NCBI GenBank assembly: GCA_024280535.1
Contig: JAJRPY010000114.1
Span: forward strand, 1-14,754
Length of the DNA stretch: 14,754 nt
Source: Gammaproteobacteria bacterium
GTDB lineage: Bacteria > Pseudomonadota > Gammaproteobacteria > PS1 > Pseudothioglobaceae
Direction: 5' to 3'
The position numbers were made by a program, and so were the translations under genes. A model generated the notes under the pieces. It had not been told where the DNA came from, did not search any database, and worked only from the letters and a program-made list of their open reading frames with translations. Shown in pieces: positions 383 to 14,754 of the stretch (positions are counted from its first letter, which is position 1; each line of letters starts with the position of its first letter).

Positions 383-1528
383 TTAAAAAGCTTTGCCAAT
401 TTGGCGATTAAATTTGCCATGGCGATAAGCATAAAAAACAACCAACAGCGTTAAGATTAACAAATGCACCGACCACAAGCCAACCATAGGCGATAATTCA
501 CCCCGTTCTAGGCTAGATTTAGCCACTAATAATGTATTGTTATACACAATAAACAACAGCACACCAACAAGTACGCCCAAATTCTTGCCGCCACGGGGTG
601 ACGCCTTGCCCAGTAAAATACCAAAAATTGACAAAATTAACACGCTGATTGGCTGAGCAAAACGCCATTGCCACTCGGCAATTTCTTTGTTATCATGTGA
701 GAATAAAATATCCCATGTTGGTTTTGACTCAAGTTTTGTCACCCTATCGACTTTATTTGGCTTGCTGCCATCGATAATCTGCAAATCATATTGATTAAAC
801 TTTAGGATTTTTTTATTTTGATCGGAAGAAAAATTGTCATATCGAACCCCGTCTTTTAAGCGAAGATACACGCCTTGATTACTGGCATTGGTATATTTTT
901 GCGCTTGATTGGCCAGAGTAATGGTTGGTTCGCCATTTGATTCAGTATAAATAAAGACTTGCGCCATATTTTGTTTGGCACTATTTTTTACATTATTAAC
1001 CTTGGCGGCGTAAAAAACCAGCGCTGAATTTTTAAACTGTTGAAACTTGCCTTCTTTAATCAAAGAAAATTCTGATGCATTATTACTACGCTCCATAATC
1101 ACATTATGCTGATTTTTTGACCATGGCACAATAATCGTTGTTAGCGCTAAAATAAATACAAACATAGCCATCACCAAAGGCTGAATAAACACCATCAAGT
1201 GCTTATCGCCGATACCTAAAGAATTCATCACGATGGCTTCGGAGTCTTTGTAGAATTTACTAATGGCTAAAATAATAGCCAAAAACAAAGATAAGGACAG
1301 AATTAATGGCACATCCCTAATCACATTAAAACTCACCAGCGGCAATAAATCCGCAATGGGAATGCCCTCTTCTATGCTTTCTTTAACGACCAGCACCAAC
1401 TGATTGCCAAAAATAATCAATCCAATAATGATAGAAACAGCCAACAACAACAATACTACTTGACGCACAACATACTTTGCAATAATGCTATTTTGAAGGG
1501 TGAAAGCTTTGGAAAATACTGAATTCAT
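383..1528 (-). CDS. lptF: LPS export ABC transporter permease LptF (YjgP/YjgQ family)
   Basis: LptF is one of the two inner-membrane permeases of the LptB2FG complex that extracts lipopolysaccharide and passes it to LptC/LptA. The 381-residue protein has the family layout. One N-terminal membrane helix (about 18-45) is followed by a second (about 65-92) ending in the coupling region FYKDSEAIVMNSLGIG (about 93-108), and a third (about 112-136). A soluble periplasmic jellyroll domain follows (about 137-290), then three C-terminal helices (about 293-365) beginning with EWQWRFAQP. The DSE-containing loop and the C-terminal PRGGKNLG segment favour LptF over LptG. The frame can start at GTG 1531, but ATG 1528 directly after it is preferred; the N-terminus is about 14 residues longer than typical. 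It lies 24 nt after rho on the same strand. The usual partner lptG is not adjacent. Confidence 0.88.
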   Translation of the reverse strand: MNSVFSKAFTLQNSIIAKYVVRQVVLLLLAVSIIIGLIIFGNQLVLVVKESIEEGIPIADLLPLVSFNVIRDVPLILSLSLFLAIILAISKFYKDSEAIVMNSLGIGDKHLMVFIQPLVMAMFVFILALTTIIVPWSKNQHNVIMERSNNASEFSLIKEGKFQQFKNSALVFYAAKVNNVKNSAKQNMAQVFIYTESNGEPTITLANQAQKYTNASNQGVYLRLKDGVRYDNFSSDQNKKILKFNQYDLQIIDGSKPNKVDRVTKLESKPTWDILFSHDNKEIAEWQWRFAQPISVLILSIFGILLGKASPRGGKNLGVLVGVLLFIVYNNTLLVAKSSLERGELSPMVGLWSVHLLILTLLVVFYAYRHGKFNRQIGKAF

Positions 1529-1552
1529 CACTCAAGCATCCGCAAATGTGGT

Positions 1553-2815
1553 TTATTTTTTTTGTGACATAGAAGCAAAAAATTCATCGTTTGTTTTCGA
1601 CATTTTTAATCGGTCAATCAAAAATTCCGCGGCTTCGACCGTATCCATAGGATGCAGAATTTTTCTCAAAATCCACATTTTTTGCAATTCTTTTTCATCG
1701 GTAATTAGCTCTTCACGGCGCGTGCCAGATGCGTTAATATTAATGGCTGGAAAGATTCGTTTTTCGCTTAAACGTTTTTCTAAGTGCAATTCCATATTGC
1801 CAGTACCCTTAAATTCTTGATAAATAACCTCATCCATTTTAGAACCTGTATCAATCAAAGCGGTGGCAATAATGGTAATGCTACCACCATTTTCAATATT
1901 CCTCGCCGCGCCAAAAAAACGCTTAGGGCGCTGCAAGGCATTGGCATCCACACCACCAGTTAGCACCTTGCCTGATGAAGGCGCTACGGTGTTGTACGCT
2001 CTGGCCAATCGAGTAATTGAATCGAGCAAAATAATCACATCTTTGCCTTGTTCTGCACGTCTTTTGGCTTTTTGAATGACCATTTCGGCGACCTGAACAT
2101 GGCGCTTAGCAGGCTCGTCAAACGTCGAGGCAATAACCTCGCCGCGAACCGTGCGTGCCATTTCTGTCACCTCTTCTGGGCGCTCATCAATTAACAAAAC
2201 AATGAGTTCACATTCTGGGTGATTGCGCGATATAGAAGTGGCAATATTTTGCATAATCATCGTCTTACCAGCTTTGGGTGGTGCCACCAATAATCCCCTT
2301 TGCCCTTTGCCGAAAGGGGCAATTAAGTCAATCACTCGAGCGGTAATATCTTCGGTGCCGCCATTACCAATTTCTAAATTTAAACGCTCATTTGGGTGGA
2401 TGGGGGTTAGTGAGGCAAAAGGCACGCGATTTCTCACATTTTCTGGATTTTCGCCATTGACCTCAGACACCTGAACCAAGGCAAAATATTTTTCACCTTT
2501 TTTAGGGGCGCGAATCTTGCCAGCTACCAAATCACCGGTGGATAAATTAAAGCGTTTAATTTGATTAGGTGCAATATAAATATCATCTGCACCCGAAGTA
2601 TAAGAATCATTACTTGATCTTAAAAATCCATAGCCATCTTGCAATACGTCCAACACACCATCCCCTACTACCTCTTCATTATTAGCCGCTTTGGCCTTAA
2701 GGATGATAAAAATCAGCGTTTGTTTTTTGGCTCGAGAAATGTTTTCTGCCCCTAAAGATTGAGCCAATTCTAATAATGCCTCTGGGGATGATTTTTTTAA
2801 TTCTGACAGTTTCAT
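1553..2815 (-). CDS. rho: Transcription termination factor Rho
   Basis: Rho is the hexameric RNA-dependent ATPase/helicase that ends transcription at Rho-dependent sites. With ATG at 2815 it is 420 residues, essentially the E. coli length, and key residues fall at E. coli-like numbers. The N-terminal helix bundle begins MKLSELKK. The cold-shock-like RNA-binding domain carries the RNP1-type DGYGFLR (60-66). Walker A APPKAGKT ends at K184-T185. Walker B VIILLDS has D265. The Q-loop segment is [13 protein letters not shown] (about 285-297) and the R-loop GSKMD (about 324-328). The frame extends upstream to a TTG at 2839, but the resulting extra eight residues do not match the family start and overlap a hairpin, so ATG 2815 is chosen; a GGAAAA run just upstream may serve as ribosome site. 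trxA upstream is the classic proteobacterial neighbour. lptF follows after 24 nt, suggesting readthrough. Confidence 0.97.
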
Positions 2816-2824
2816 GAATTTTCC

Positions 2825-2866
2825 ATTGTAATTTGGCAAGAATTTGCCAATTGTTTATTGTAATTT
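2825..2866. repeat. Duplicated 10-mer in the rho leader
   Basis: ATTGTAATTT occurs at 2825-2834 and again at 2857-2866, 32 nt apart. On the transcribed strand this is AAATTACAAT twice, flanking the 7-bp hairpin before rho. Each copy contains TACAAT, a possible -10 box, but I find no good -35 for either. AT-rich sequence makes chance duplication fairly likely. Confidence 0.5.
2833..2850 (-). promoter_or_regulatory. Hairpin in the 5' leader of rho
   Basis: TTGGCAA (2833-2839) and TTGCCAA (2844-2850) pair as a 7-bp stem with a 4-nt loop, ending 17 nt before the rho ATG. No T-run follows on the transcribed strand, so it is not an intrinsic terminator. rho leaders are autoregulated in E. coli; a regulatory or translation-affecting hairpin here would fit but is inference. 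Confidence 0.45.
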
Positions 2867-2924
2867 GTTGTCATTGCTGAACAGTATTGTTTTTTTTAAA
2901 CTGTGACACCTTTAATTACATTCA

Positions 2925-3251
2925 TTAAATGTTGGTATCAATAAATGCGCTTAACTCTGCCTTGGACAAAGCGCCCATTTTTGTGGCAACCACAGCACCT
3001 TCTTTAAATAATAGCATGCTTGGAATGCCGCGAATACCGTATTTTGGTGGTGTTTGGTCGTTTTCATCCACATTAATCTTGACAATCACAACCTTGCCAT
3101 CGTACTCATCAGCAATCTCGTCTAACACGGGGGCTAAAGCTTTACAAGGGCCACACCATTCTGCCCAAAAATCAACCAATACGGCCTGTGATGAATTAAT
3201 AACGTCCGCTTCAAAGCTGGCATCTGTCACTGCTAAAATTTTATCGTTCAT
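2925..3251 (-). CDS. trxA: Thioredoxin
   Basis: This is a small cytosolic dithiol reductant, kept reduced by thioredoxin reductase, that serves ribonucleotide reductase, PAPS/methionine sulfoxide reductases and general disulfide repair. The 108-residue length is typical of TrxA. The active site WCGPC sits at 32-36 and the buried Asp at 27 (VDFWAEW). The cis-proline loop is GIRGIPS with P77; the usual Thr after that proline is Ser here, a conservative change. There is no signal peptide. ATG at 3251 is the start and no strong Shine-Dalgarno is visible. It lies upstream of rho with a 109-nt gap and downstream of glnD with a 90-nt gap. That second gap holds an extended -10 element and a hairpin, so trxA probably has its own transcript in addition to any readthrough from glnD. 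Confidence 0.96.
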
Positions 3252-3281
3252 AGTTTTTTAATAATTTAAAATAAGAAAGAG

Positions 3282-3297
3282 ACAGCAGAACTGCTGT
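3282..3297 (-). promoter_or_regulatory. Hairpin between glnD and trxA (leader stem or weak terminator)
   Basis: ACAGCA (3282-3287) pairs with TGCTGT (3292-3297), with an inner G-C pair also possible. On the minus strand it is followed by CTCTTTCTTATTTT, a broken T-tract. It could weakly terminate glnD transcripts. It also begins about 3 nt after the start predicted from the candidate trxA promoter, so it could equally be a 5'-terminal stem on trxA mRNA. I cannot decide between these from sequence. Confidence 0.45.
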
Positions 3298-3306
3298 AAT
3301 GTTGAA

Positions 3307-3315
3307 ATTATATCA
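3307..3315 (-). promoter_or_regulatory. Extended -10 promoter element for trxA
   Basis: The minus strand reads TGATATAAT, a full extended -10 (TG-N-TATAAT). No good -35 lies 16-18 nt upstream, which extended -10 promoters can tolerate. The predicted start near 3300 gives a leader of about 50 nt for trxA. Confidence 0.45.
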
Positions 3316-3341
3316 GCATTCACTCCAAATACATAGTTTTT

Positions 3342-5858
3342 TTACAATCTTTCTACTAATGCTTTTTTTAGTACCGACTGTTGTGCTTTATTGAGTGGCT
3401 TGCCTTGGTCATTATGAATATAAAAAACATCCTCAACACGCCCGCCCAATGTTGCCACTCGGGCATTAACAAGTGACACGTCCAACTGATACAAGACGTA
3501 AGCAATATTGGACAAAACCCCCACCCTATCAAGCGTATTAATTTCTAATTGAGACAATTGCCACTTTTTATTTTCACCAAATTTGATATGGGTTTTATGA
3601 TCAAAATATTTGTGCGATAGTTGTTGTATTGGCTTTGAAACATCAGATTCTGGTGCAATTAACGCCTCTTTAATAAGCTGATGAAAATCTAACTCGGCTA
3701 AATTATCATTTTGAAGAATACTAATAGTATTGTACGCTTGACCATTTTTAGTGGTGAGAATTTTTGCATCCACAATGTCCATCCCCATTTTTTCCACCAC
3801 AGACACCAGATTAAAAAACAGACCTTTAAAATCCTGACACAAAATAAAAATATCCACCACATTACTATCGGATATTTTTGAACTCACCAATATTTCTGGC
3901 AAATTTTTGTTAAGCTGCAACGACAAATGCCACAAAACATCATCAAGGTCATGGCGCAAATAATAATCCTCTGGCAACTGCTCTAATACGGCATCAACCA
4001 ACACCATATCAAGCCCCTGCGCGATAGCTGCCTGCATAATATGGCTTTTATTTGTCTTGGATCTTTGGCTATTACTGGGCAAAATAGCTACTTTATTGCC
4101 GAAATACTGCTTAGTCTGATTGAATAATTTTTTTAACAAAGCGTCTTTCCAATTATTCCAAAGATCGTCTTTAGTGGCGCGAATATCTGCCACGGTGAGC
4201 AAATATAAATAGTTTAAAAATTCTAAAGAACCTATAGCATCCGCAAAGTTTTTAATCACAATAGGATCATCAATATCTTGCTTTTGAGACACGCCAGACA
4301 TTAGCAAATGCCTTTTTACCAGCCCTACTACAAGATTAGTGTCCGCCGAATTTAGCCGATGACTTTGGCAAAATTCTTTAGCATCCTGCATGCCTAATTC
4401 AGCATGATCACCACCTCTGCCCTTGGCAATATCATGAAATAATCCACCCAGCAAAAGCAATTCTGGTTTTTTAATCTTGGTTGCCACTTCGCTACACAAA
4501 TTAAATTCATGGGCAAACTCACTCACAAAAAAGCGCCTTAAATTACGCACCACAAACAAGGTATGCTGATCCACCGTAAAAGCATGAAACAAATCATACT
4601 GCATTAGTCCGCTAATCTTGCCAAACGCTGGAATATACCGCTCCAATACACCATATCGATTCATTAATTTTAAGGCCTTATTAACCCCTTGACCTTGCTG
4701 CAACAACTCAATAAATAGGCGATTATTGTTTCGTTTTTGATGATAATGCTGATCCAATAAATCCAAATTATATTGCATTTGCCTAAGCGTTCCAGCACGA
4801 ATACCGCAGACATAACTATGCTTGGCAATGAGCAAAAAAACCTCAATAAAAGCGGATGGATTTTCTACAAAAACGCGATCATGGCAAGCATGAATATAAC
4901 CATACGAAATTTTAAATCGACTATTTAAAGTTTGGCTGTTTAATATCCTATCTTCTAATAACTGCAATAAAATATCATTCAAACGACCGACTTTAGTCAC
5001 GGTTTGGTAATAATCTTTCATAAACCCTTCGACTGCCATCGAATCGCCCTCTGCATAGCCCAGCATTTCTGCCACTTGTTTTTGGTATTGAAAAGCCAGA
5101 CGATCCTCTCGACGATTGGCAATCACGTGCAAGGCAAATCTAACCCGCCATAAGAATAATTGAGAGGTTTTTAAAATCTCGTATTCGTCATTACTTAAAT
5201 AATCAGAGGCGACCAAGCCAAACAAAGTATCTACATCAAAATACCATTTTGCCACCCAAGTAACCGTCTGAATATCGCGCAACCCCCCTGGGCTTTCTTT
5301 AATATTGGGCTCTAAATTGTAAGCACTATTTGCAAAGCGCCGGTGTCTATTTTGTTGCTCTTTTTGTTTTTCAACCAAAAAAGATTGCGAGGACCAATCA
5401 CTCAGTTTAATCACATTTTTCATTTGATTAAAAATTCGCTCCGGACCAATAATCAATCTCGATTCAAGCATATTGGTAACAATGCTCAACTCATCAATCA
5501 CTCGCATACAGTCCTGAATATCTCTTGTGGCATGACCCACCTCAAGACCAACATCCCATAAAAACGTTAGAAATTTGGCAATGGTCTCTTGATGCGTTTG
5601 GTGGGAGTCACTAGGAATAAGAATCAGTAAATCAATATCCGAATATAAGTGTAATTCACCTCGACCGTACCCCCCTACGGCGACCAATGAAAGCTGGCTT
5701 GAGATATTAAAACCTTGCCAAATAGATTTTAATAATTCATCAATACCATTGGCTCGGGCCAATACAAACCCTTCAACTGCACTACTGGATTTTAAAAAAC
5801 CCGCCTGTAAAGATTGTTGTAAATCTTGATATTGGGCTTTGTACTTATCTAATTGCAT
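3342..5858 (-). CDS. glnD: Bifunctional PII uridylyltransferase/uridylyl-removing enzyme GlnD
   Basis: GlnD senses glutamine and adds UMP to, or removes it from, PII proteins (GlnB/GlnK), thereby steering glutamine synthetase and NtrBC. All domains are present in 838 residues, slightly short of E. coli (about 890). The nucleotidyltransferase core has VGGYGRGELHLYSDID (61-76), with metal-binding D74 and D76. The GlnD-specific GGLRDI motif lies at 191-196. The HD domain for deuridylylation has LFHDIAKGRGGDHAELG, with H475-D476. Two C-terminal ACT domains (about 690-760 and 770-838) are recognisable by FKGLFFNLVSVV and DRVGVLSNIAYVL, and would bind glutamine. Both active sites look intact, so both activities are expected. 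ATG 5858 is used; no strong ribosome site is seen. It sits 15 nt after gltX, which probably drives it. The PII partner is not in the window. Confidence 0.95.
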   Translation of the reverse strand: MQLDKYKAQYQDLQQSLQAGFLKSSSAVEGFVLARANGIDELLKSIWQGFNISSQLSLVAVGGYGRGELHLYSDIDLLILIPSDSHQTHQETIAKFLTFLWDVGLEVGHATRDIQDCMRVIDELSIVTNMLESRLIIGPERIFNQMKNVIKLSDWSSQSFLVEKQKEQQNRHRRFANSAYNLEPNIKESPGGLRDIQTVTWVAKWYFDVDTLFGLVASDYLSNDEYEILKTSQLFLWRVRFALHVIANRREDRLAFQYQKQVAEMLGYAEGDSMAVEGFMKDYYQTVTKVGRLNDILLQLLEDRILNSQTLNSRFKISYGYIHACHDRVFVENPSAFIEVFLLIAKHSYVCGIRAGTLRQMQYNLDLLDQHYHQKRNNNRLFIELLQQGQGVNKALKLMNRYGVLERYIPAFGKISGLMQYDLFHAFTVDQHTLFVVRNLRRFFVSEFAHEFNLCSEVATKIKKPELLLLGGLFHDIAKGRGGDHAELGMQDAKEFCQSHRLNSADTNLVVGLVKRHLLMSGVSQKQDIDDPIVIKNFADAIGSLEFLNYLYLLTVADIRATKDDLWNNWKDALLKKLFNQTKQYFGNKVAILPSNSQRSKTNKSHIMQAAIAQGLDMVLVDAVLEQLPEDYYLRHDLDDVLWHLSLQLNKNLPEILVSSKISDSNVVDIFILCQDFKGLFFNLVSVVEKMGMDIVDAKILTTKNGQAYNTISILQNDNLAELDFHQLIKEALIAPESDVSKPIQQLSHKYFDHKTHIKFGENKKWQLSQLEINTLDRVGVLSNIAYVLYQLDVSLVNARVATLGGRVEDVFYIHNDQGKPLNKAQQSVLKKALVERL

Positions 5859-5873
5859 AGGCTAGATAATCAC

Positions 5874-7259
5874 TCATTCATCACCAGATTGTGCCATATA
5901 GTCAAGCGCCATTTTTAGTCTTGCCAGTGTGCGTTTTTGACCAACCAATTCTGCAACAATATCGATATTTCCAGCATTGCCATTGCCACTTAACGCCAAG
6001 CGAAACGGCTGGCCAATTTTGCCAAAGCCAATATCAAGCTCACTACACACTTGTTTAATTTGTTCTTTAATATTATCCGCAAGCCACTCATCTAAGGCAC
6101 TGAGTTTGTTGAATAGCAATTCGATGGGTTGACTGTCTTTAAATTGCTTCTGTGCTAATGCGGCATCAAATGTTGCAAAATCTTGATAAAACATTTTCAT
6201 ACCATCAGCCATCTCAACCAAGGTTTTTGAGCGTGTTTGTAAATGTTTAACAACTGCCTCAAGGCTTGGCCCGGTTGAGGTGTCAATTAATTGACGTTTT
6301 AAGTGCCAATCCAACTGTTCAATCAAATATTCAGCGCTGGCTGACTTAATATATGCTTGATTTAACCAGAGTAATTTTTCTGGATTAAAACTCGCCGGCG
6401 CTTTATTAATATTTTTCAATTCAAACAACGCCACAATTTCATCTATAGAAAACACCTCTTGATCGCCATGCGACCAACCCAAACGCACCAAATAATTCAA
6501 CAAAGCATCTGGCAAAAAACCCTCATCTCGATAAGCCATCACACTCACTGCCCCATGGCGTTTCGACAATCTGGCACCATCAGTACCCAAAATCATAGGC
6601 AAATGAGCAAATTCAGGCAACGCCCAGCCAAGTGCCTCATACAAGTTAATCTGTCTTGGTGTATTATTAATATGGTCGTCACCGCGAATAACGGTATCAA
6701 TCCCCATATCATGATCATCCACCACAACCGTCAAATTGTAAGTTGGAGTGCCGTCACTACGCGCAATAATCAAATCATCCAATTCTTGATTGCCAATCGA
6801 TATTGCTCCTTTAACCACATCATTAAAATGCACAAAACCATCTAAAGGATTGTTAAAACGCACCACGCCTGAGCGCAATTTTTTATCTCGACAGCGGCCA
6901 TCATATTTGGCTTTTTCACCTTGTTCGGTTAATTTTTCACGCAAACTTTGTAGCCGCTCTTTTGAGCATTCACAATAATAGGCTTTATCTTCATTTAATA
7001 ACTGCTGAATGATTTCCTGATAACGCTCAAATCGATCAGTTTGATAAAAAGGCCCTTCGTCATAGTCAAGCGCCAACCAGCTCATCCCCTCTAAAATAGC
7101 CTCTACCGAGGCCTGAGTCGATCGCTGCGTATCCGTATCTTCAATACGAAGCACAAAACTGCCTTGTTGTTTTTTGGCCCAAGCCCAAGCAAATAATGCC
7201 GTTCTGGCACCGCCTATATGCAAATATCCTGTCGGTGATGGTGCAAATCTTGATTTCAT
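5874..7259 (-). CDS. gltX: Glutamyl-tRNA synthetase
   Basis: GltX charges tRNA-Glu (and tRNA-Gln if non-discriminating) in the cytosol. It is a class I synthetase of 461 residues, the usual bacterial length. The HIGH-type motif is HIGG at 14-17 inside FAPSPTGYLHIGG. The KMSKS loop is the GluRS form LSKRHG (231-236). A zinc-type cluster is seen as CEC (96-98) with a YDGRC segment ending at C123, as in E. coli GluRS. The catalytic region TYNLTVVVDDHDMGI is intact. ATG 7259 is the start, 9 nt after the Sel1-repeat gene, and glnD follows 15 nt later. Co-expression of glutamate-charging and nitrogen-sensing genes is plausible but may be no more than operon convenience. Whether it discriminates against tRNA-Gln cannot be judged here. 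Confidence 0.96.
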   Translation of the reverse strand: MKSRFAPSPTGYLHIGGARTALFAWAWAKKQQGSFVLRIEDTDTQRSTQASVEAILEGMSWLALDYDEGPFYQTDRFERYQEIIQQLLNEDKAYYCECSKERLQSLREKLTEQGEKAKYDGRCRDKKLRSGVVRFNNPLDGFVHFNDVVKGAISIGNQELDDLIIARSDGTPTYNLTVVVDDHDMGIDTVIRGDDHINNTPRQINLYEALGWALPEFAHLPMILGTDGARLSKRHGAVSVMAYRDEGFLPDALLNYLVRLGWSHGDQEVFSIDEIVALFELKNINKAPASFNPEKLLWLNQAYIKSASAEYLIEQLDWHLKRQLIDTSTGPSLEAVVKHLQTRSKTLVEMADGMKMFYQDFATFDAALAQKQFKDSQPIELLFNKLSALDEWLADNIKEQIKQVCSELDIGFGKIGQPFRLALSGNGNAGNIDIVAELVGQKRTLARLKMALDYMAQSGDE

Positions 7260-7268
7260 AAATAGCGC

Positions 7269-7724
7269 TTATTCACTGTCCACTTTTGCCGCTTTGTCAT
7301 ACCAAAATTGCGACTTTGCTAAATCTTGAGTCACTTCCTTACCCTCTTCATACAACATACCGAGCGTGTACATCGGACCAGGAATACCAAATTCAGCCGC
7401 TTTTTCAAACCACTCAACGGCTTTTAAAATATCCTTATCAGCCCCCTCGCCCGTCATATAAGCAACGCCAATCATATGATGGGCAAAAACATGGCCTTGC
7501 TCGGCTGCTAATAGAAAATTGTCCAGCCCAAGCGCCTGATTTTCCACCATACCCAGCCCATTCATTTGCATCATCCCAAGCCGCCATTGGCTTTCAGCAT
7601 TGCCCTGTGCGGCAAGTGGCGCTAATAACTGGTAAGCCATCGTAAAATTTTTGGTATCGAAAGCTGTGATACCGCTTGATAAATCAGCATTATAAATATC
7701 TGTAGAATTAGAGTCACTCACCAT
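7269..7724 (-). CDS. Sel1-like (TPR-type) repeat protein of unknown role
   Basis: This is a 151-residue protein built largely of Sel1-like repeats, which form alpha-helical hairpin scaffolds for protein contacts. Three repeats can be traced. The first is AAQGNAESQWRLGMMQMNGLG (spread over about 40-60). The second is EQGHVFAHHMIGVAYMTGEGA, continuing into KAVEWFEKAAEFG. The third is GPMYTLGMLYEEGKEVTQD, ending in SQFWYDKAAK. No signal peptide or membrane helix is seen, so it is likely cytosolic, unlike many secreted Sel1 proteins. The frame reaches TTG at 7733, but ATG 7724 has a GAG ribosome site at good spacing and is preferred. It is the first gene of the probable sel1-gltX-glnD operon and starts about 40 nt after a candidate promoter. 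Its partner and function are unknown. Confidence 0.8.
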   Translation of the reverse strand: MVSDSNSTDIYNADLSSGITAFDTKNFTMAYQLLAPLAAQGNAESQWRLGMMQMNGLGMVENQALGLDNFLLAAEQGHVFAHHMIGVAYMTGEGADKDILKAVEWFEKAAEFGIPGPMYTLGMLYEEGKEVTQDLAKSQFWYDKAAKVDSE

Positions 7725-7767
7725 TTTTCTCAAATGTCAAAAGACGCTAATTTTACACGCAGACTGT

Positions 7768-7776
7768 TGTTATAAT
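7768..7776 (+). promoter_or_regulatory. Extended -10 promoter for the Mth938-rodA-murU operon
   Basis: The plus strand reads TGTTATAAT, a complete extended -10. A TTTACA at 7752-7757 is the best -35-like hexamer, but its 13-nt spacer is too short. The predicted start near 7783 gives a leader of about 25 nt before GTG 7808. It overlaps the opposing -10 box. Confidence 0.5.
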
Positions 7777-7807: not shown

Positions 7808-8170
7808 GTGGAATTTAACCAACAAGATAATCATCAAAATAGCATTATTTCAATAGAAAATGATGTCATTCAATTGTCTAACGTCCAATTAACAACACCT
7901 TGTTTTATCTCTAAGAATTTTTCAACAAGCACCGATTTGCACCAACTGCATAAACTCAACAAATTGTCATTATTCCCACTCAGCAGCCAAGATGACATCG
8001 ATTTATTGATCATCGGCACCGGAGTCCTGCCCACATTTCTCAGCGGCCAGCAACAAGTTGAGTTCCAACACATGGGCATCAACACCGAATGTATGAATAG
8101 CGATTCCGCTTGTCGCAGTTTTAACCTGTTATTATCTGACGCTAGAAATATCGGCTTGCTACTCTTATGA
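7808..8170 (+). CDS. Mth938-like domain protein (DUF498 family)
   Basis: This is a 120-residue single-domain protein of the Mth938/Xcc981 fold. Related to the mitochondrial complex I assembly factor NDUFAF3, its bacterial role is not settled. The hallmark LLIIGTG (66-72) is followed by GINTECM and the conserved ACR plus SFN segment (about 90-106). GTG 7808 is the only reasonable start, because TAA at 7805-7807 lies directly before it in frame; no Shine-Dalgarno is evident. It is the first gene of the wall operon and overlaps rodA by 4 nt (ATGA), so its translation probably feeds rodA. Nothing in the sequence ties it to peptidoglycan except position. Confidence 0.82.
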   Translation: MEFNQQDNHQNSIISIENDVIQLSNVQLTTPCFISKNFSTSTDLHQLHKLNKLSLFPLSSQDDIDLLIIGTGVLPTFLSGQQQVEFQHMGINTECMNSDSACRSFNLLLSDARNIGLLLL

Positions 8171-9306
8171 ATTTTTTTAGCATTGCACGATTAAGGCATT
8201 ATTGGCATTATTTCAAACTAGATACACCTTTATTTTTGCTCATTATGACGCTAAGTAGCTTTGGTTTAGTAATTCTTTACTCCGCTTCAGCAGATTCTCT
8301 TAGCACTATTTACAAGCAAATTTTTCATTTTTCTCTGGCCATTGGCACTATGTTGGTAATCGCGCAAATTCCGCCCAATGTCCTCAGACGCTTTTCACCG
8401 TATCTGATGTTATTCGGTATTTTTCTGCTAGTTTTGGTGCTGTTTTTTGGCTCTAGCAGTGGTGGCGCGCAACGATGGCTCGATCTTGGTTTTGTGCGCT
8501 TCCAGCCCTCTGAAATTATGAAGGTCATTGTTCCCATTGCTATCGCCTCTATTTTGAGTGAAAAAACCTTACCCGCAAAGCCAATGCCTATTTTTTTATC
8601 CGTTATTTCCATTGCCACCATCGTCTTATTAATCGCCCGACAACCCGATTTAGGCACCTCCATACTGATTGGCGCTTCGGGTGCCTATGTATTATTTTTT
8701 TCAGGCGTTCGCATTCAAATTTTGCGTAATAATTGGCTTAATTTAACCCTAATCGCCTCATTTATTAGTGCCTCTGGTTACGTAGCTTGGAATTATCTAC
8801 TCATGACCTATCAAAAAAAACGCATCCTGACCTTAATTGACCCCAGTTCTGACCCACTTGGCTCTGGCTATCATATTTTACAATCCAAAATTGCCATCGG
8901 TTCGGGCGGTATTTTTGGCAAAGGGCTTGATCAAGGCTCACAATCCCAGCTTAATTTTCTGCCCGAGCATTCAACTGATTTTATTTTTGCCGTTATCGCT
9001 GAAGAGCTTGGACTAATCGGCATATTATGTTTATTTATGCTTTACGGCTTGATTATTTACAGGGCGTTTGTCATTTCTTTTCAGGCTGAAGACAACTTTT
9101 CTAAATTACTCGGTGCCAGCCTGACCTTAACATTTTTTACCTATATTTTTGTTAATGTTGGCATGGTTTCAGGCTTGTTGCCCGTTGTCGGCGTGCCATT
9201 GCCACTGGTTAGTTATGGGGGCTCATCACTGATTACTTTAATGTCAAGTTTTGGTATTATTATGGCCATTCGAAAACACAAAACCCCTAGCTATTTACAA
9301 CACTAA
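8167..9306 (+). CDS. rodA: Rod-shape SEDS peptidoglycan glycosyltransferase RodA
   Basis: RodA is the inner-membrane polymerase that, with PBP2, makes lateral-wall glycan from lipid II in the elongasome. The 379 residues form about ten membrane helices. SEDS signatures are all present: FQPSEIMK (112-119), QPDLGT (159-164), PEHSTDFIFA (266-275, with D271 in the position of the putative catalytic Asp), and GVPLPLVSYGGSS (342-354). The FTGASGAY-like stretch and the EELGL segment after the catalytic loop also match. RodA is favoured over FtsW by the short N-terminus and by the mltB-dacA neighbours. It overlaps the previous gene by 4 nt and mltB by 1 nt. The usual partners mrdA (PBP2) and rlpA are absent from this cluster, so PBP2 must lie elsewhere. 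Confidence 0.95.
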   Translation: MNFFSIARLRHYWHYFKLDTPLFLLIMTLSSFGLVILYSASADSLSTIYKQIFHFSLAIGTMLVIAQIPPNVLRRFSPYLMLFGIFLLVLVLFFGSSSGGAQRWLDLGFVRFQPSEIMKVIVPIAIASILSEKTLPAKPMPIFLSVISIATIVLLIARQPDLGTSILIGASGAYVLFFSGVRIQILRNNWLNLTLIASFISASGYVAWNYLLMTYQKKRILTLIDPSSDPLGSGYHILQSKIAIGSGGIFGKGLDQGSQSQLNFLPEHSTDFIFAVIAEELGLIGILCLFMLYGLIIYRAFVISFQAEDNFSKLLGASLTLTFFTYIFVNVGMVSGLLPVVGVPLPLVSYGGSSLITLMSSFGIIMAIRKHKTPSYLQH

Positions 9307-10340
9307 TGCCACTATTAATAACCCTATTTTTGCTGTTATTCTCGTCAACAATGCTGGCAAAAACCTTGCCCGCAACAAGTTTTCAAGTAACCCAAGACTT
9401 TATCAATAAAATGGTCAAAGTGCATGATTTTAATCAAGCCGAACTGCATGCTATGTTCTCAAAAATTGACCTCATCATTACTGATGAAACAAACAAGACA
9501 AATAAACCCAGTAAACCAAGCAAACCCAGCAAGGCAATAAAACAACCCAAGCCATTATCCTGGGATACCTACCGCGCCTTATTTATGACTAACAAACGCA
9601 TCCATAATGGCGTTCAATTCTGGAAAGACAACCTTTCAAGCCTCCAACGCGCTGAAAAACAATACAACGTCCCTCCAGAAATTATCGTGGCCATCTTAGG
9701 TATTGAAAGCAATTATGGCCGTCATAAAGGCACACATCCAGTCTTAGAAACATTGGCAAGATTATCTTTTAACCCGCATCGCCGCCAACCTTTCTACCAA
9801 AAAGAATTAGAAGAATTTCTGCTAATGTCGCGTGAAAATGCACTATCGCCCTTAACCATCAAGGGTTCTTATGCGGGCGCTCTGGGTTATGCGCAATTCA
9901 TTGCCAGTTCTTATCGACATTATGCAGTGGATTTTGATTCTGATCACAAAATAGACTTATTTAACAGTGCTGCGGATGCCATCGGCTCTATTGCCAATTA
10001 TTTTGACCAGCATCAATGGCACGATTCTGGTGCTTATGCGCGCCCAGTCAATTTGCCAGCCCATCAAAAAAAACATGCCAAATCAGGCATCAATAAACCC
10101 AAAACACGTGCCCTGTATTGGCGCAACAAGGGATTTAAAATAGACGACGACATTCACAACAAGACCAAACTGGCCTTTATTAAACTGCCTCAAGACAATC
10201 ATTTTGAAATTTGGCTGACTTTCTGGAATTTTTACGTGCTAACTCGTTATAATCATAACAATAAATATGCAATGACTATTGTGCAATTATCTAAAAAAAT
10301 TAAACAACAATTTATTCAACACTACCCTAAACTATTATGA
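9306..10340 (+). CDS. mltB: Lytic murein transglycosylase B (MltB family)
   Basis: MltB cleaves the MurNAc-GlcNAc bond of peptidoglycan without water, giving 1,6-anhydro-MurNAc ends that can be recycled. The 344-residue protein has the Slt35/MltB signature ILGIESNYGRHKGTHP, with catalytic E134. It also has the SYAGALGYAQFIASSY segment and an FDSDHKIDLFNSAADAIGSI stretch. The N-terminal hydrophobic segment (2-18) looks like a type I signal peptide ending near MLA. There is no lipobox Cys, so this form is probably soluble in the periplasm rather than an outer-membrane lipoprotein like E. coli MltB. A lysine-rich linker with three KPS repeats (from K67) precedes the domain. ATG 9306 overlaps the rodA stop by 1 nt (TAATG), and the end overlaps dacA by 4 nt. 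Confidence 0.93.
   Translation: MPLLITLFLLLFSSTMLAKTLPATSFQVTQDFINKMVKVHDFNQAELHAMFSKIDLIITDETNKTNKPSKPSKPSKAIKQPKPLSWDTYRALFMTNKRIHNGVQFWKDNLSSLQRAEKQYNVPPEIIVAILGIESNYGRHKGTHPVLETLARLSFNPHRRQPFYQKELEEFLLMSRENALSPLTIKGSYAGALGYAQFIASSYRHYAVDFDSDHKIDLFNSAADAIGSIANYFDQHQWHDSGAYARPVNLPAHQKKHAKSGINKPKTRALYWRNKGFKIDDDIHNKTKLAFIKLPQDNHFEIWLTFWNFYVLTRYNHNNKYAMTIVQLSKKIKQQFIQHYPKLL
9504..9530 (+). repeat. 9-nt tandem repeat coding (Lys-Pro-Ser)x3 in mltB
   Basis: Three near-identical 9-nt units (AAACCCAGT, AAACCAAGC, AAACCCAGC) run in frame, with a related lysine/proline-rich tail after them. They lie in the linker between the signal peptide region and the catalytic domain. In-frame units could change number by slippage without breaking the gene. 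Confidence 0.8.
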
Positions 10341-11464
10341 AATTTTTATCCTCCTCCAAACTCCTAATCGCCTCAATTATTACCATCTCAATTAATGCAC
10401 AAGCGGCTATTTTTATCACGCCACAATCCCCCGAGATTAACGCTGCTGCTTATGTTGTATTGGATTATAATTCTGGAATAACCCTAGCCAGCAGCAACCC
10501 ACACACCAGGCGCATACCTGCCAGCCTAGCCAAACTGATGACCGCTTATGTGATTTTCCAACTCATCCATGATGGTCGCGCCAGTCTTGATGACGAAGTG
10601 CGTATCAGCAAAAAAGCCTGGCAAACAGGTGGCTCTAAAAGTTTTGTTGAAGTTGGCAAAAAAATCAAGCTTGAGACCTTATTGCAAGGTATGATTATCC
10701 AATCTGGCAACGACTCCGCGGTCGCATTAGCCGAGCATATTGCAGGCACAGAAGGCACCTTTGCCACCTATATGAACGAATATGCTCGCAAATTAGGCAT
10801 GCAAGATTCACGCTTTGAAAATGCCTCGGGTCTGCCCCATGCCGACCAATACACCACAGCGGCAGATATGGCTATTTTGGCAGCAGCGACTATTCGTGAT
10901 TTTCCTCAATTCTACCCATGGTACTCACAAAAAGAGTTTACTTACCACGGCATCAAACAGCGCAATCGCAATAAATTACTTTGGAGCGATCACACGGTTG
11001 ACGGGCTTAAAACGGGTTTCACTAAAAAAGCCGGCTACAATCTAGTTGCCAGTGCCAATCGTGTTAATATGCGTCTAATTTCAGTAGTGCTTGGCTCAAC
11101 CAGCGTGGCAGCAAGATCCTCTCAAACCCAACGCATCTTAGACTACGGATTTCGTTTTTTTGAAACCCAAACACTCGCCGACTTTAGCAAGCAAATTCCC
11201 ATCTCTGGCGCCATAAAAGACACTTTAAACATTGGCTCTGTTGGCACGGCAAGCTTTACCTTGTCTCGCGGACAATTTAAATTATCCGACCAAGTTATTC
11301 AACTAGACGACGAAGTTTCAGCACCCATTAGCAAAGGAGACAAAATTGGCAAACTGCTAATTCAATTTGAAGGAAAAACCACTGCCAGCATTCCATTAGT
11401 TGCCCTAGAAGATGTAAAACAAGCTGGATTTTTCTCACGTATGTTGGAGAAAATTGGGTTTTAA
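10337..11464 (+). CDS. dacA: D-alanyl-D-alanine carboxypeptidase (PBP5/6 family)
   Basis: This is a low-molecular-weight penicillin-binding protein that trims the terminal D-Ala from pentapeptide stems in the periplasm, releasing D-Ala. All active-site motifs are present in 375 residues: SLAK (S63, K66), SGN (123-125) and KTG (225-227, in DGLKTGFTKKAGYN). A signal peptide covers about 1-23 and ends at AQA. The C-terminal beta-domain follows (about 275-360). The end (FFSRMLEKIGF) looks like the amphipathic helix that anchors PBP5 to the outer face of the inner membrane. ATG 10337 overlaps mltB (ATGA), and the stop overlaps the dat start by 1 nt. Whether it matches E. coli DacA, DacC or DacD cannot be told; dacA is used as the family name. 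Confidence 0.95.
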   Translation: MKFLSSSKLLIASIITISINAQAAIFITPQSPEINAAAYVVLDYNSGITLASSNPHTRRIPASLAKLMTAYVIFQLIHDGRASLDDEVRISKKAWQTGGSKSFVEVGKKIKLETLLQGMIIQSGNDSAVALAEHIAGTEGTFATYMNEYARKLGMQDSRFENASGLPHADQYTTAADMAILAAATIRDFPQFYPWYSQKEFTYHGIKQRNRNKLLWSDHTVDGLKTGFTKKAGYNLVASANRVNMRLISVVLGSTSVAARSSQTQRILDYGFRFFETQTLADFSKQIPISGAIKDTLNIGSVGTASFTLSRGQFKLSDQVIQLDDEVSAPISKGDKIGKLLIQFEGKTTASIPLVALEDVKQAGFFSRMLEKIGF

Positions 11465-12297
11465 TGGTCTATCTTAACGGCGAATTTGTCCCCAAACATA
11501 ATGCTTATGTCCACGTCATGGACAGAGGTTTTTTATTTGGCGATGGCGTTTATGAAGTGATACCGGTTTATTCTGGCAAGATTTTTCGCCTTGATGAACA
11601 CCTTAAACGCTTGCAAAACAGCCTGCATTCCGTGCAAATCAACAACCCCTACTCAACCCAACAATGGCACCAGATTTTGCATCAATTATTGGATTATTCA
11701 TCCACATCCAATCAATCACTGTATTTGCAAATAAGTCGTGGCGCGGATGTCTGTAGAAAGCACAGTTTTGATACACTCACCCCCACCGTATTTATTGAAT
11801 CAAACCCCTTAACACCCAAAACCAAGCCTGAACTTGAAACTGGCTATCGCGCCATTAGTCAAGCCGATTTTCGCTGGCAACGTTGCGATATTAAATCCAC
11901 CTCTTTATTGGCCAATATTATGTACGCACAACACGCCAAGCAACATCAAGTCGAAGAGGTCATTCTACACCGCGACCAACAAATCACAGAGGGTGCCACT
12001 TCTAATGTTTTTATCGTTAAAGACGACACACTATTCACCCACCCAACAAGCGAGCATATTTTATCTGGCATCACCCGTGATTTGGTGTTAGAAAGTGCCC
12101 GCTATTGCCAATTGTCCATTCAAGAAACTGCATTTAGCCTAGCTGATTTATTGTCCGCTGACGAAGTATGGCTCTCTAGTTCAACCCGCGAAATAATGCC
12201 CATTATTGACGTGGACGGCCACTCAATCAATCACGGCATCCTCGGCAAATACTGGTCGCAAGTGTATGATTATTATCAAGACTTAAAGCATGCATAA
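11464..12297 (+). CDS. dat: D-amino-acid (D-alanine) aminotransferase, PLP fold type IV
   Basis: This enzyme probably exchanges amino groups between D-alanine and 2-oxoacids, giving pyruvate plus D-glutamate, in the cytosol. The 277 residues fit fold-type IV transaminases. PLP Lys is K144 in CDIKSTSLLAN, the cofactor-binding Glu is E177 in EGATSNVFIV, and SSSTREIMPI closes the site. The RG-x4-RxH pattern (R92, R98, H100) is the substrate-carboxylate signature of D-amino-acid transaminases. It argues against IlvE or aminodeoxychorismate lyase, though these remain alternatives. ATG 11464 overlaps the dacA stop (TAATG), and amgK starts 8 nt before its end. Its place after a D-Ala-releasing carboxypeptidase suggests use of that D-Ala, or supply of D-Glu for MurD; this is inference. 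Confidence 0.85.
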   Translation: MVYLNGEFVPKHNAYVHVMDRGFLFGDGVYEVIPVYSGKIFRLDEHLKRLQNSLHSVQINNPYSTQQWHQILHQLLDYSSTSNQSLYLQISRGADVCRKHSFDTLTPTVFIESNPLTPKTKPELETGYRAISQADFRWQRCDIKSTSLLANIMYAQHAKQHQVEEVILHRDQQITEGATSNVFIVKDDTLFTHPTSEHILSGITRDLVLESARYCQLSIQETAFSLADLLSADEVWLSSSTREIMPIIDVDGHSINHGILGKYWSQVYDYYQDLKHA

Positions 12298-13252
12298 CCC
12301 GCAAAATACCCTAACCCCTGTGGATTTAAGATTAGACCAACTAGAAGACTGGCTAGAAACCTTCTTTGATGATGCCAATTTCACCCTATCCGCCATCAAT
12401 AACGATGCCAGTTTTCGTCGATATTTTCGTATTCAGCGCAACAACCTTTCTTTTATTGCAATGGATGCACCACCTGAAAAAGAAAATTCCGAACGATTTG
12501 TAGAAATTGCTAAATTGTTGCGCAATAATAATATTCATGCCCCGAAAATTATTGACAAAAATCTAACGTTAGGATTTTTACTCATTGAAGATTTAGGTAA
12601 CACAACCTTTCTACAAGCACTCAACAACAAAACAAATTTCGATTTATACAAGCTGGCAATTGACGAACTAATAAAAATCCAACAAATTGATTTAAAAGAT
12701 AGCACTCTTAAGCAATACGACGAAGCCTTGCTTAATACTGAATTAGAGCTACTAGTGGATTGGCATCTGCCCAAAAATATTAGGCAAACATCACTTCTTA
12801 ACAACTTGCACAGTTTATTTGACCAACTAACCCAAAATTCACTCAACTCACCACAGGTATTTGTCCACCGTGATTACCATTCTCGAAACCTAATGATGAC
12901 CAATAAAAAAATCACCATCATTGATTTTCAAGATGCCGTCATTGGCTCAAACACCTACGACTTAGTATCCTTACTCAAAGATGCCTATATTGAACTAGAG
13001 CCCACCAAAGTGCAAGCCTTGCTTGCATATTTTTATCAGCAAGCCAATGTTCAACTAGATTTTGCATCATTTGAAAAACAATTCGACCTCATGGGTTTAC
13101 AACGTCATCTTAAGATTTTGGGAATTTTTAAACGTCTATCATTACGTGATGGAAAAAATCAATATTTAAATGACATTCCCTTGGTTAAAAAATATGTCTT
13201 ACAAATGGCTGACAAATATTCTGATTTTACATGCCTAAAGGCGCTTTTATGA
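12290..13252 (+). CDS. amgK: N-acetylmuramate/N-acetylglucosamine kinase AmgK
   Basis: AmgK phosphorylates the anomeric carbon of free MurNAc (and GlcNAc), the first step of the recycling route found in Pseudomonas and relatives. The 320-residue protein has the aminoglycoside-phosphotransferase fold. DASFRRYFR (39-47), typical of AmgK, is in the N-lobe, and LLIEDLG marks the hinge. The catalytic loop is VHRDYHSRN (H193, D195, N200), and IIDFQDAVIG has metal-binding D212. A true aminoglycoside resistance kinase is unlikely given these motifs and the adjacent murU. ATG 12290 overlaps dat by 8 nt, the longest overlap in the operon, and the stop overlaps murU by 4 nt. The MupP phosphatase that feeds this route in Pseudomonas is not in the window. 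Confidence 0.9.
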   Translation: MHNPQNTLTPVDLRLDQLEDWLETFFDDANFTLSAINNDASFRRYFRIQRNNLSFIAMDAPPEKENSERFVEIAKLLRNNNIHAPKIIDKNLTLGFLLIEDLGNTTFLQALNNKTNFDLYKLAIDELIKIQQIDLKDSTLKQYDEALLNTELELLVDWHLPKNIRQTSLLNNLHSLFDQLTQNSLNSPQVFVHRDYHSRNLMMTNKKITIIDFQDAVIGSNTYDLVSLLKDAYIELEPTKVQALLAYFYQQANVQLDFASFEKQFDLMGLQRHLKILGIFKRLSLRDGKNQYLNDIPLVKKYVLQMADKYSDFTCLKALL

Positions 13253-13911
13253 AGGCAATGATTTTGGCTGCTGGCAGAGGTGAACGTATGATGCCACTCA
13301 CCAAAAACACCCCAAAACCATTAATCAAAGTCAAAGGTATAACACTCATTGAGCATACCATCAACGCCCTCAAACAAGCCAACATAACCGACATCATTAT
13401 CAATCTCTGCTATCTTGGCGAGCAAATTCAAACACAGCTAAAAGATGGCACAAATTTTGGCGTTAATATTCGTTACAGCGACGAATCAAACCACACCTTA
13501 GAAACCGCAGGCGGCATTATCAACGCCCTGCCATTATTAGGCAATAAGCCCTTTTTAGTCATTAATTCTGACGTATTATGTGATTACAACTTATCCAAAT
13601 TAAGCCTACCCGCAGATTCACTCGCGCATTTACTATTAGTCAATAACCCCAGTCACCACCCAAAAGGCGATTTCGCACTTACCAATAATCAAAAAATCAC
13701 ACTAGCCCAACACAAACGCCTAACTTTTTCAGGCATCGGCATTTATCACCCTGATTTTTTCAAACACCATCTAGGCACCCAAGGCAAACTAGCCCTCAAC
13801 CTACTACTCAAAGAAGCCATCTCCACCAACCAACTCAGTGGCGAACATTATCAAGGCTATTGGCAAGATATCGGCACACCAGAACGCTTGGAAAAGGCCG
13901 ATAATCGCTAA
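13249..13911 (+). CDS. murU: N-acetylmuramate-1-phosphate uridylyltransferase MurU
   Basis: MurU couples MurNAc-1-phosphate to UTP, giving UDP-MurNAc that re-enters wall synthesis after MurA/MurB, the fosfomycin-sensitive steps. The 220-residue nucleotidyltransferase begins MKAMILAAGRGERMMPLT (1-18), with the signature GxGxR loop and TPKPL (21-25). LVINSD (103-108) carries metal-binding D108. GDFAL, FSGIGIYHPDFF and QDIGTPERL near the C-terminus match MurU more than glucose-1-phosphate transferases. The frame is open to ATG 13231, but ATG 13249 gives the family N-terminus, an AAAGG ribosome site and a 4-nt ATGA overlap with amgK. It is the last gene of the operon, and no convincing intrinsic terminator follows. 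Confidence 0.92.
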   Translation: MKAMILAAGRGERMMPLTKNTPKPLIKVKGITLIEHTINALKQANITDIIINLCYLGEQIQTQLKDGTNFGVNIRYSDESNHTLETAGGIINALPLLGNKPFLVINSDVLCDYNLSKLSLPADSLAHLLLVNNPSHHPKGDFALTNNQKITLAQHKRLTFSGIGIYHPDFFKHHLGTQGKLALNLLLKEAISTNQLSGEHYQGYWQDIGTPERLEKADNR

Positions 13912-14009: not shown

Positions 14010-14042
14010 TTGCACTCTAAATTTATAAAAATCATCAATTAT

Positions 14043-14754
14043 ATGACTCAAACTCGAACAGGAAAAGCATTTGAATACGCCATACTAAAAGAATTTTATG
14101 AGAAATTGAATCATATTACTACTGTTCAAATTGTTCAAAGTGATGCTTTAACAACAGCAAAAAATTACTTTACACAATTCAACAAACAAGAACAAGGGCG
14201 ATATTTATTAACAGCCAGTTTTGCTGTTAACTTTTTAATGGACATAGAGCCTAGACTTAAGCATGATATTGGCAAAACAGACATATTACAATTAGAAATT
14301 TTAACGGACTACCAAGGTCAACAAGGGGATGTTAGAGATATTGTTGCCATTCGTAAATTACAAGAATGGGAAATAGGTGTTTCTGCCAAAAACAACCATA
14401 AAGCAATTAAACATTCCAGACTGTCGAATAAAATTGATTTTGGGGAAAAATGGTTGGGCGTTAATTGTTCAAAAATTTATTTTGATGAGGTTGATTTAAT
14501 TTTTAATCCATTAAAAATAATAAAAGATGAGAGTAAGTCTACTCAAAAATGGGATACCTTAAACAACAAAGAAGATAGTATTTATATTCCAATTCTAAAA
14601 GCTTTTAAAAAAGAATTAAGTAGAATTTATAATACAAACCCTGGGAAAATAGCTGGTAATTTAGTCGAATATCTAGTTGGAAATAAGGATTTTTATAAAG
14701 TTATAAAAGGGAAAAACAAAGTAGAAATACAGGCTTACAACTTACATGGATCAC
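14043..14754 (+). CDS. HaeIII-family type II restriction endonuclease (3' end beyond window)
   Basis: I translated 237 codons from ATG 14043 with no stop, so the gene runs past the window. The N-terminus TGKAFEYAILKEFYEKL and the block GDVRDI (95-100) ... EWEIGVSAKNNH (108-119) ... KHSRLSNKIDFGEKW resemble HaeIII-type endonucleases, which cut GGCC. A PD-(D/E)XK-like site could use D96 or D99 with E110 and K116; this assignment is tentative. There is no signal peptide and no obvious Shine-Dalgarno. Sampled lines are about 30% G+C, below the neighbouring operon, and lack its C-over-G bias, which suggests horizontal acquisition. A GGCC-specific cytosine-C5 methyltransferase would be expected next to it, but none lies in the window, so it should be beyond 14754 if the system is whole. 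Confidence 0.82.
   Translation, partial: MTQTRTGKAFEYAILKEFYEKLNHITTVQIVQSDALTTAKNYFTQFNKQEQGRYLLTASFAVNFLMDIEPRLKHDIGKTDILQLEILTDYQGQQGDVRDIVAIRKLQEWEIGVSAKNNHKAIKHSRLSNKIDFGEKWLGVNCSKIYFDEVDLIFNPLKIIKDESKSTQKWDTLNNKEDSIYIPILKAFKKELSRIYNTNPGKIAGNLVEYLVGNKDFYKVIKGKNKVEIQAYNLHGS

Follow-up and report, generated by a model that had tools for sequence, protein, structure and literature searches.

Anabolic recycling of N-acetylmuramic acid (MurNAc) through AnmK, MupP, AmgK and MurU has been described in Pseudomonas putida and Pseudomonas aeruginosa (PMC5371407; PMC7038268). In Pseudomonas the genes amgK-murU are PA0596-PA0597, and the accessible portions of these reports do not mention a link to rodA. 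In Caulobacter crescentus, AmgK and MurU are encoded by CCNA_03649 and CCNA_03650 and deletion of amgK raises fosfomycin sensitivity; a link to a rod-elongation operon is likewise unmentioned in the accessible portion of that report (PMC13046382). Here we describe a stretch of gammaproteobacterial DNA of 14,754 nucleotides (nt; "the window"), contig C152 of a 1.27-Mb draft genome (G000, 83% complete), in which amgK and murU are the last two genes of a probable seven-gene operon that includes rodA, mltB, dacA and a transaminase gene, dat. The window's closest AmgK relatives, among the matches listed, come from Candidatus Thioglobus and Bathymodiolus thiotrophic symbionts, and its family is probably the Thioglobaceae (SUP05-type), marine sulfur oxidisers and symbionts of clams and mussels. 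As far as the accessible texts go, the system has the probable enzymes of the Pseudomonas pathway and shares with it an adjacent amgK and murU, the absence of MurQ matches over cut-off and an expected effect on fosfomycin, and with Caulobacter the neighbouring position of the pair. Unlike in these systems, the pair ends a rodA operon in the window's family and, in a further difference from Pseudomonas, it is fused in 9 of 47 family genomes. The salvage pathway itself is already known; what sets this family apart, among the genomes examined, is the arrangement.

The seven open reading frames (ORFs) lie on the + strand at 7808-13911 in the order DUF498-rodA-mltB-dacA-dat-amgK-murU. The first, with a GTG start, is of the Mth938-type DUF498 family (7808-8170; PF04430, 57.3 bits, cut-off 33), and is followed by genes for the elongasome peptidoglycan glycosyltransferase RodA (8167-9306; TIGR02210, 404 bits, cut-off 336.7), the lytic transglycosylase MltB (9306-10340; TIGR02282, 308.4 bits, cut-off 281.4) and a D,D-carboxypeptidase of PBP5 type, DacA (10337-11464; Peptidase_S11 PF00768, 264 bits, and PBP5_C PF07943, 45.8 bits). 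The product of dat (11464-12297) is a probable D-amino-acid transaminase (PF01063, 186 bits), narrowly under the TIGR01121 cut-off (275.4 against 277.45). The final two genes, which behave as a module, encode the MurNAc (anomeric) kinase AmgK (12290-13252; NF045759, 251.7 bits over residues 14-320, cut-off 550) and the MurNAc-1-P uridylyltransferase MurU (13249-13911; NF045761, 293.4 bits, cut-off 250), the latter read from an internal ATG at 13249 of a mechanical ORF that begins at 13231. MurU also matches the solved chains 4y7t and 8hhd. The initial annotation had named RodA, MltB, DacA, a D-amino-acid transaminase, AmgK and MurU and had given successive overlaps of 4, 1, 4, 1, 8 and 4 nt for the seven genes; domain and family models back the identities, and the overlaps are exact in window coordinates.

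The Escherichia coli K-12 locus reads mrdA-mrdB(rodA)-rlpA-dacA-ybeD-lipB, and the cluster at our outgroup locus L051 reads rodA-mltB-rlpA-dacA-dat-DUF493-lipB. As in both of these, genes for wall-cleaving enzymes or RlpA come after rodA and before dacA, and as in L051, dat stands directly 3' of dacA. Unlike in either, DUF498 precedes rodA and amgK-murU occupies the place of DUF493-lipB. No rlpA match was found in the family loci, whereas rlpA is present in E. coli K-12 and L051; in the window there is none between mltB and dacA, which overlap by 4 nt.

Among the 83 genomes of the family set (G### below, with L### for loci and g# for genera), 47 have a strong MurU match; 45 of these score above the curated cut-off, and the other two are G082 (238.6 bits) and G069 (179.4 bits, from a piece at a contig end). 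In agreement with the initial annotation's expectation of a conserved order, 38 of the 47 show the full seven-gene order, two of them with a broken gene (G037 retains remnants of mltB, and G056 has rodA and mltB divided among different frames), and the remaining nine are cut by contig ends with every visible neighbor the expected one. AmgK adjoins MurU, or is fused with it, in 47/47, and genomes of 0.9-2.8 Mb retain both the gene order and the overlap of dat with amgK. Outside the family, no same-strand rodA or dacA was found near amgK at 63 contig loci (those outside the family among the best 80 AmgK loci of the matches listed) or at 80 class-sample loci, with flanks that extend up to about 9.5 kb but are often less (at least 5 kb on both sides in 35/63 and 57/80). 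The class sample had AmgK matches in 100/114 genomes, two of them belonging to the family, and the 80 loci are those fetched of the other 98. At L325, the same strand carries an Aminotran_4-like match (93 bits) 7.5 kb downstream of amgK; with no match to rodA or dacA in its vicinity, it was judged a paralogue. Thus, among the genomes examined, amgK-murU appears to be joined to the rodA-dacA operon only in this family. The titles and abstract openings that we searched, with subscription journals mostly outside the search, contain neither an amgK-rodA link nor an AmgK-MurU fusion, although the term "AmgK-MurU" is mentioned in further papers such as PMC9764285.

The rodA-mltB-dacA and amgK-murU sets had been described as separate loci in known systems, and these counts bear that out (0/63 and 0/80 joined), yet the two are convergent neighbors in 12/80 class-sample loci. 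In those 12 and in L051, dat and/or dacA lies on the other strand downstream of amgK-murU, accompanied by lipB, rlpA, mltB or rodA where the flank is long enough; L044 shows the same convergent layout, dat and lipB being the only such genes in view. Starting from an arrangement of this kind, a local inversion that also removed DUF493-lipB would produce the order of the window's family. Where at least 2.5 kb upstream of amgK is available, lptD is divergent upstream of it in 42/58 and 44/73 loci outside the family, and no lptD match occurs in any family locus. Every one of the 51 AmgK sequences from the family in the tree (some genomes represented twice) belongs to a single clade (support 0.999), and repeated horizontal gain inside the family was therefore rejected. 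We propose that amgK-murU became attached once, in the family ancestor, behind dat in an already established DUF498-rodA-mltB-dacA-dat operon, immediately ahead of dnaX-ybaB-recR, probably from the common gammaproteobacterial site beside lptD.

The 3' end of the operon shows that the pair can be absent while rodA-dacA-dat is kept. Members bearing MurU have amgK-murU between dat and dnaX, and dnaX follows in 40/47 loci besides the window, whose contig ends before it; six of the seven loci with no dnaX in view end within 2.4 kb (DnaX, YbaB and RecR were identified by model matches in relatives' loci). The pair is absent from two genera, g5 (14 loci) and g8 (2 loci), in which dat is followed directly by dnaX with about 190-240 nt between the matches. 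Four reduced g6 genomes of 1.0 Mb (G034, G035, G038 and G043) have either lost the pair or keep it in decayed form, and their dat-dnaX space measures 793-1269 nt. This space holds remnants of amgK and murU in G034 and of murU in G035 and G043, with no detectable match in G038. DUF498-rodA-dacA-dat is retained where amgK-murU has been lost.

Two trees, from which sequences with stops or too short were left out, bear on the direction of change. A 41-taxon tree of six genes, rooted on E. coli and L051, has G082 branching first (94.7/95) and g5 and g8 in nested positions, implying three losses when the g6 clade is counted; in a 63-taxon tree of four genes with one outgroup, g5 rather than G082 branches first. 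On the premise of a single origin of the linkage, both trees imply a loss in g8; a loss in g5 is likely but not certain. For the g6 clade, the in-place remnants in three of its four genomes support a loss. Other parts of the operon vary as well. Additional g6 decay (L139, L164-L167) comprises mltB remnants in G037, G034, G038 and G043 and a rodA with stops in G035. Within g5, the mltB match is missing in 11/14 loci, intact in G015 and G029 and a remnant in G031; in 13 of the loci the start of dat is no more than about 13 nt from the dacA end, and in the other (G007) the two genes are separated by an ABC transporter set of glutamate/aspartate type (L173:6742-9830).

In all, 46 of the 83 family genomes, a choice that favoured more complete genomes and took in all 12 of g6, were searched for the other recycling genes; 33 were MurU-positive and 13 MurU-negative. 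AmpG was found in 33/33 (one partial), a full-length NagZ-type GH3 in 32/33 (no match in G047), AnmK in 31/33, a MupP-like HAD protein of 142-165 bits in 31/33 (identity checked for G000 and G062 alone), Amidase_2 in 31/33 (that of G000 not being AmpD) and a stop-free full-length Mpl in 27/33, each against 0/13 of the MurU-negative genomes. Stop-ridden GH3 fragments occur in four of those 13, and G015, also MurU-negative, has a 91-bit HAD piece at a contig start. G055 has no Amidase_2 and only contig-end pieces of HAD. Thus, amgK-murU is lost nearly always together with ampG, nagZ, ampD, anmK, mupP and mpl, although the counts share ancestry and amount to about three losses, not 13. MurA is present in 45/46 genomes, with none found in G078. 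MurQ over cut-off was found in 0/46; weaker matches occur in 34/46, including the window's own genome (best E 2.2e-5). Six of the MurU-positive genomes (G036, G037, G039, G040, G042 and G070) have a decayed Mpl or none at all, which indicates that the peptide arm can go first; in the first five of these, AnmK and MurU are intact despite a decayed mpl. The seven g5 genomes tested are without AnmK, GH3, AmpG, Amidase_2 and full-length Mpl, and nagZ fragments with stops occur in four reduced genomes.

The six salvage genes ampG, nagZ, anmK, mupP, ampD and mpl are located away from the operon. In the window's own draft, AmpG and a NagZ-type GH3 are adjacent on C68, AnmK is on C157 (395.4 bits, cut-off 24), Mpl is on C134 and pieces of MurA are on C24 and C26. 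The HAD protein on C128 has NF009696 MupP as its best model (176.2 bits, under the cut-off of 359); we tentatively identify it as MupP because that model ranks best and because a YciK-family gene lies near the counterpart in G062, mupP presumably adjoining yciK in Pseudomonas. No AmpD was found in this 83% complete draft, the sole Amidase_2 (C155) being of a different type and scoring 94.9 bits against an AmpD cut-off of 143. AmpD-size Amidase_2 frames (175-182 aa) are present in 8/8 other same-genus genomes tested, and that of G062 was confirmed as AmpD (262 bits). Absence of the upstream recycling genes, which the initial annotation had raised against its own reading, can be rejected given AmpG, NagZ-type GH3, AnmK and MupP-like HAD, with Mpl found as well and AmpD alone missing from the draft. 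L230:3630-4454 is an exported-looking Amidase_2 with a C-terminal extension, AmiD-like by reading, beside a MurD-like ORF.

The best conserved promoter motif of the operon is TGNTATAAT at 7768-7776 (+ strand), which we take to be an extended -10 promoter. Its TATAAT is invariant in 11/11 same-genus regions upstream of DUF498 and in 10/10 genomes of the operon alignment, nine of which keep the full TGNTATAAT. A sigma-70 scan returned 32 promoter-like sites against 21.8 expected (standard deviation 5.3), and promoters were therefore called by conservation and not from the scan alone; terminator-like sites are at chance (8 against 7.4 expected). The possibility that internal promoters divide the set, also raised by the initial annotation, finds no support at seven internal + strand sites, none of which keeps 5/6 TATAAT matches in more than 4/10 genomes, and retains one candidate inside mltB, considered below. 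With no gaps between the genes and a single conserved upstream promoter, co-transcription from DUF498 to murU is likely. The overlaps are not a general packing of the stretch, since all five junctions of the six minus-strand genes at 383-7733 are gapped (21, 85, 90, 15 and 9 nt). Overlap at all six junctions is found in the window genome only, one of 38 family loci in which all six are readable (36 of them without a broken gene), with starts chosen by homology here and in the counts that follow. DUF498 and rodA overlap by 4 nt in 55/58 loci; a start fitting the 8-nt dat/amgK overlap exists in 42/46 (first choice in 34), even in G082, the most divergent family member; and for amgK/murU, a 4-nt overlap fits in 39/39 unfused loci, with overlap or fusion in 48/48. 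The mltB/dacA overlap occurs in only 7/38 loci, a count that leaves out the two broken-gene loci, G037 and G056.

Taken together, we consider it probable that one promoter drives the rod-elongation genes rodA, mltB, dacA and dat together with the genes for the two final enzymes of anabolic MurNAc salvage, and that the pair was joined once and is kept or lost with its pathway. AmpG, NagZ and AmpD would import and trim anhydro-muropeptides made partly by MltB, AnmK and MupP would yield MurNAc, AmgK would convert this to MurNAc-1-P, and MurU would form UDP-MurNAc that returns to wall synthesis. The likely benefit would be constitutive co-expression in step with wall growth, with no sensing circuit. 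Several observations weigh against this account. The window's AmgK is far under its curated cut-off, as is the MupP candidate; however, NF045759 is the top model for AmgK with a near full-length match, and the neighboring MurU passes its own cut-off. Both G001 and G082 carry amgK-murU with no AnmK match, and G082 (86% complete) also has no MupP-like or Amidase_2 match. TATAAT near 10248, inside mltB, is kept in 10/10 genomes; by reading it encodes a YN codon pair, and it may be an internal promoter ahead of dacA. In G037, mltB is decayed while amgK-murU is intact, and G046 extends 7.7 kb 3' of murU with no dnaX. Rooting is weak, the outgroups and G082 being long branches, and with g5 basal, as in the one-outgroup tree, absence in g5 could be ancestral.

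The same facts can be read as neutral packing, in which streamlining, through rearrangement, placed two salvage genes behind a constitutive operon and the linkage supplies a promoter only. Such an origin is possible, though on balance somewhat unlikely: the operon holds only the last two salvage genes, with ampG-nagZ, anmK, mupP, ampD and mpl elsewhere, the pair is lost while DUF498-rodA-dacA-dat stays, and an inversion with deletion could join the clusters that are already convergent in 12/80 class loci, whereas the family preserves this order and the overlap of dat with amgK, even in its most divergent member and at all genome sizes sampled. A tighter link, with translation through the overlaps setting elongasome and salvage stoichiometry and UDP-MurNAc made where and when RodA inserts glycan, would fit the single conserved promoter and the near-constant dat/amgK and amgK/murU junctions. 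It appears unlikely, as AmgK and MurU work in the cytoplasm and far upstream of lipid II, the operon contains no sensor or regulator, the entry steps of salvage are unlinked, amgK-murU and mltB are lost independently and the mltB/dacA overlap is rare. The initial annotation's proposal that one transcript could tie glycan insertion to turnover and re-use is likewise unsupported as a regulatory link: the pair is dispensable, mltB can go alone and six recycling genes lie elsewhere. That AmgK and MurU serve another sugar-nucleotide pathway instead of wall recycling would account for the low AmgK score and for the pair without AnmK in G001 and G082, but we regard it as very improbable, given that MurU is over its cut-off and tracks AmpG, NagZ, AnmK and the MupP-like protein nearly everywhere tested.

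AmgK and MurU share one frame in the nine genomes with fused pairs (G001, G002, G003, G073, G074, G077, G078, G081 and G082). The four fused ORFs at L135:9150-10835, L153:8893-10533, L158:8176-9786 and L019:8995-10605 are 536-561 aa long, with both domains model-confirmed in G082 alone. Genus g10 has fused pairs beside species with unfused ones, and G077 (6% contamination) has fused and unfused copies on two contigs. A possible fusion outside the family (L280, 1/80) was set aside because of an ambiguous residue at the junction of its translation. The operon might deliver salvage output in fixed ratio to the elongasome, in some lineages through a fused bifunctional enzyme that would channel MurNAc-1-P, but it seems doubtful that such a coupling explains why this pair, and not the other recycling genes, is located here. 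These fusions are direct targets for biochemistry.

The MurA motif GGCAIG(T/S/A)RP, presumably the fosfomycin-sensitive form, was found in 30/30 loci. Given this motif and the absence of MurQ over cut-off, fosfomycin tolerance through the MurU bypass, as initially predicted, is plausible. More broadly, the family offers a natural experiment, with salvage-bearing genera, salvage-free genera and reduced genomes caught in decay. If G037 is Candidatus Ruthia magnifica, as we presume, MurNAc salvage would be retained in a clam symbiont belonging to a group that one report describes as reduced in wall synthesis (PMC7826175).

Rfam had no match at gathering threshold within the window, and an RNA element was accordingly rejected. 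On the opposite strand upstream of the operon are sel1 (named by domain model) and gltX, glnD, trxA and rho (named by reading their translations), with gaps of 9-90 nt; with window translations as queries, counterparts of gltX, sel1 and glnD occupy the same places in relatives. The gap between murU and dnaX looks like an insertion site, since the window, G062, G056, G067 and G072 carry extra DNA there: a homoserine-efflux-like gene in G062 and 1.2-2.0 kb in G056, G067 and G072. In the window, a HaeIII-type restriction endonuclease gene (PF09556, 246.9 bits) lies just 3' of murU at 14010-14753, cut by the contig end.

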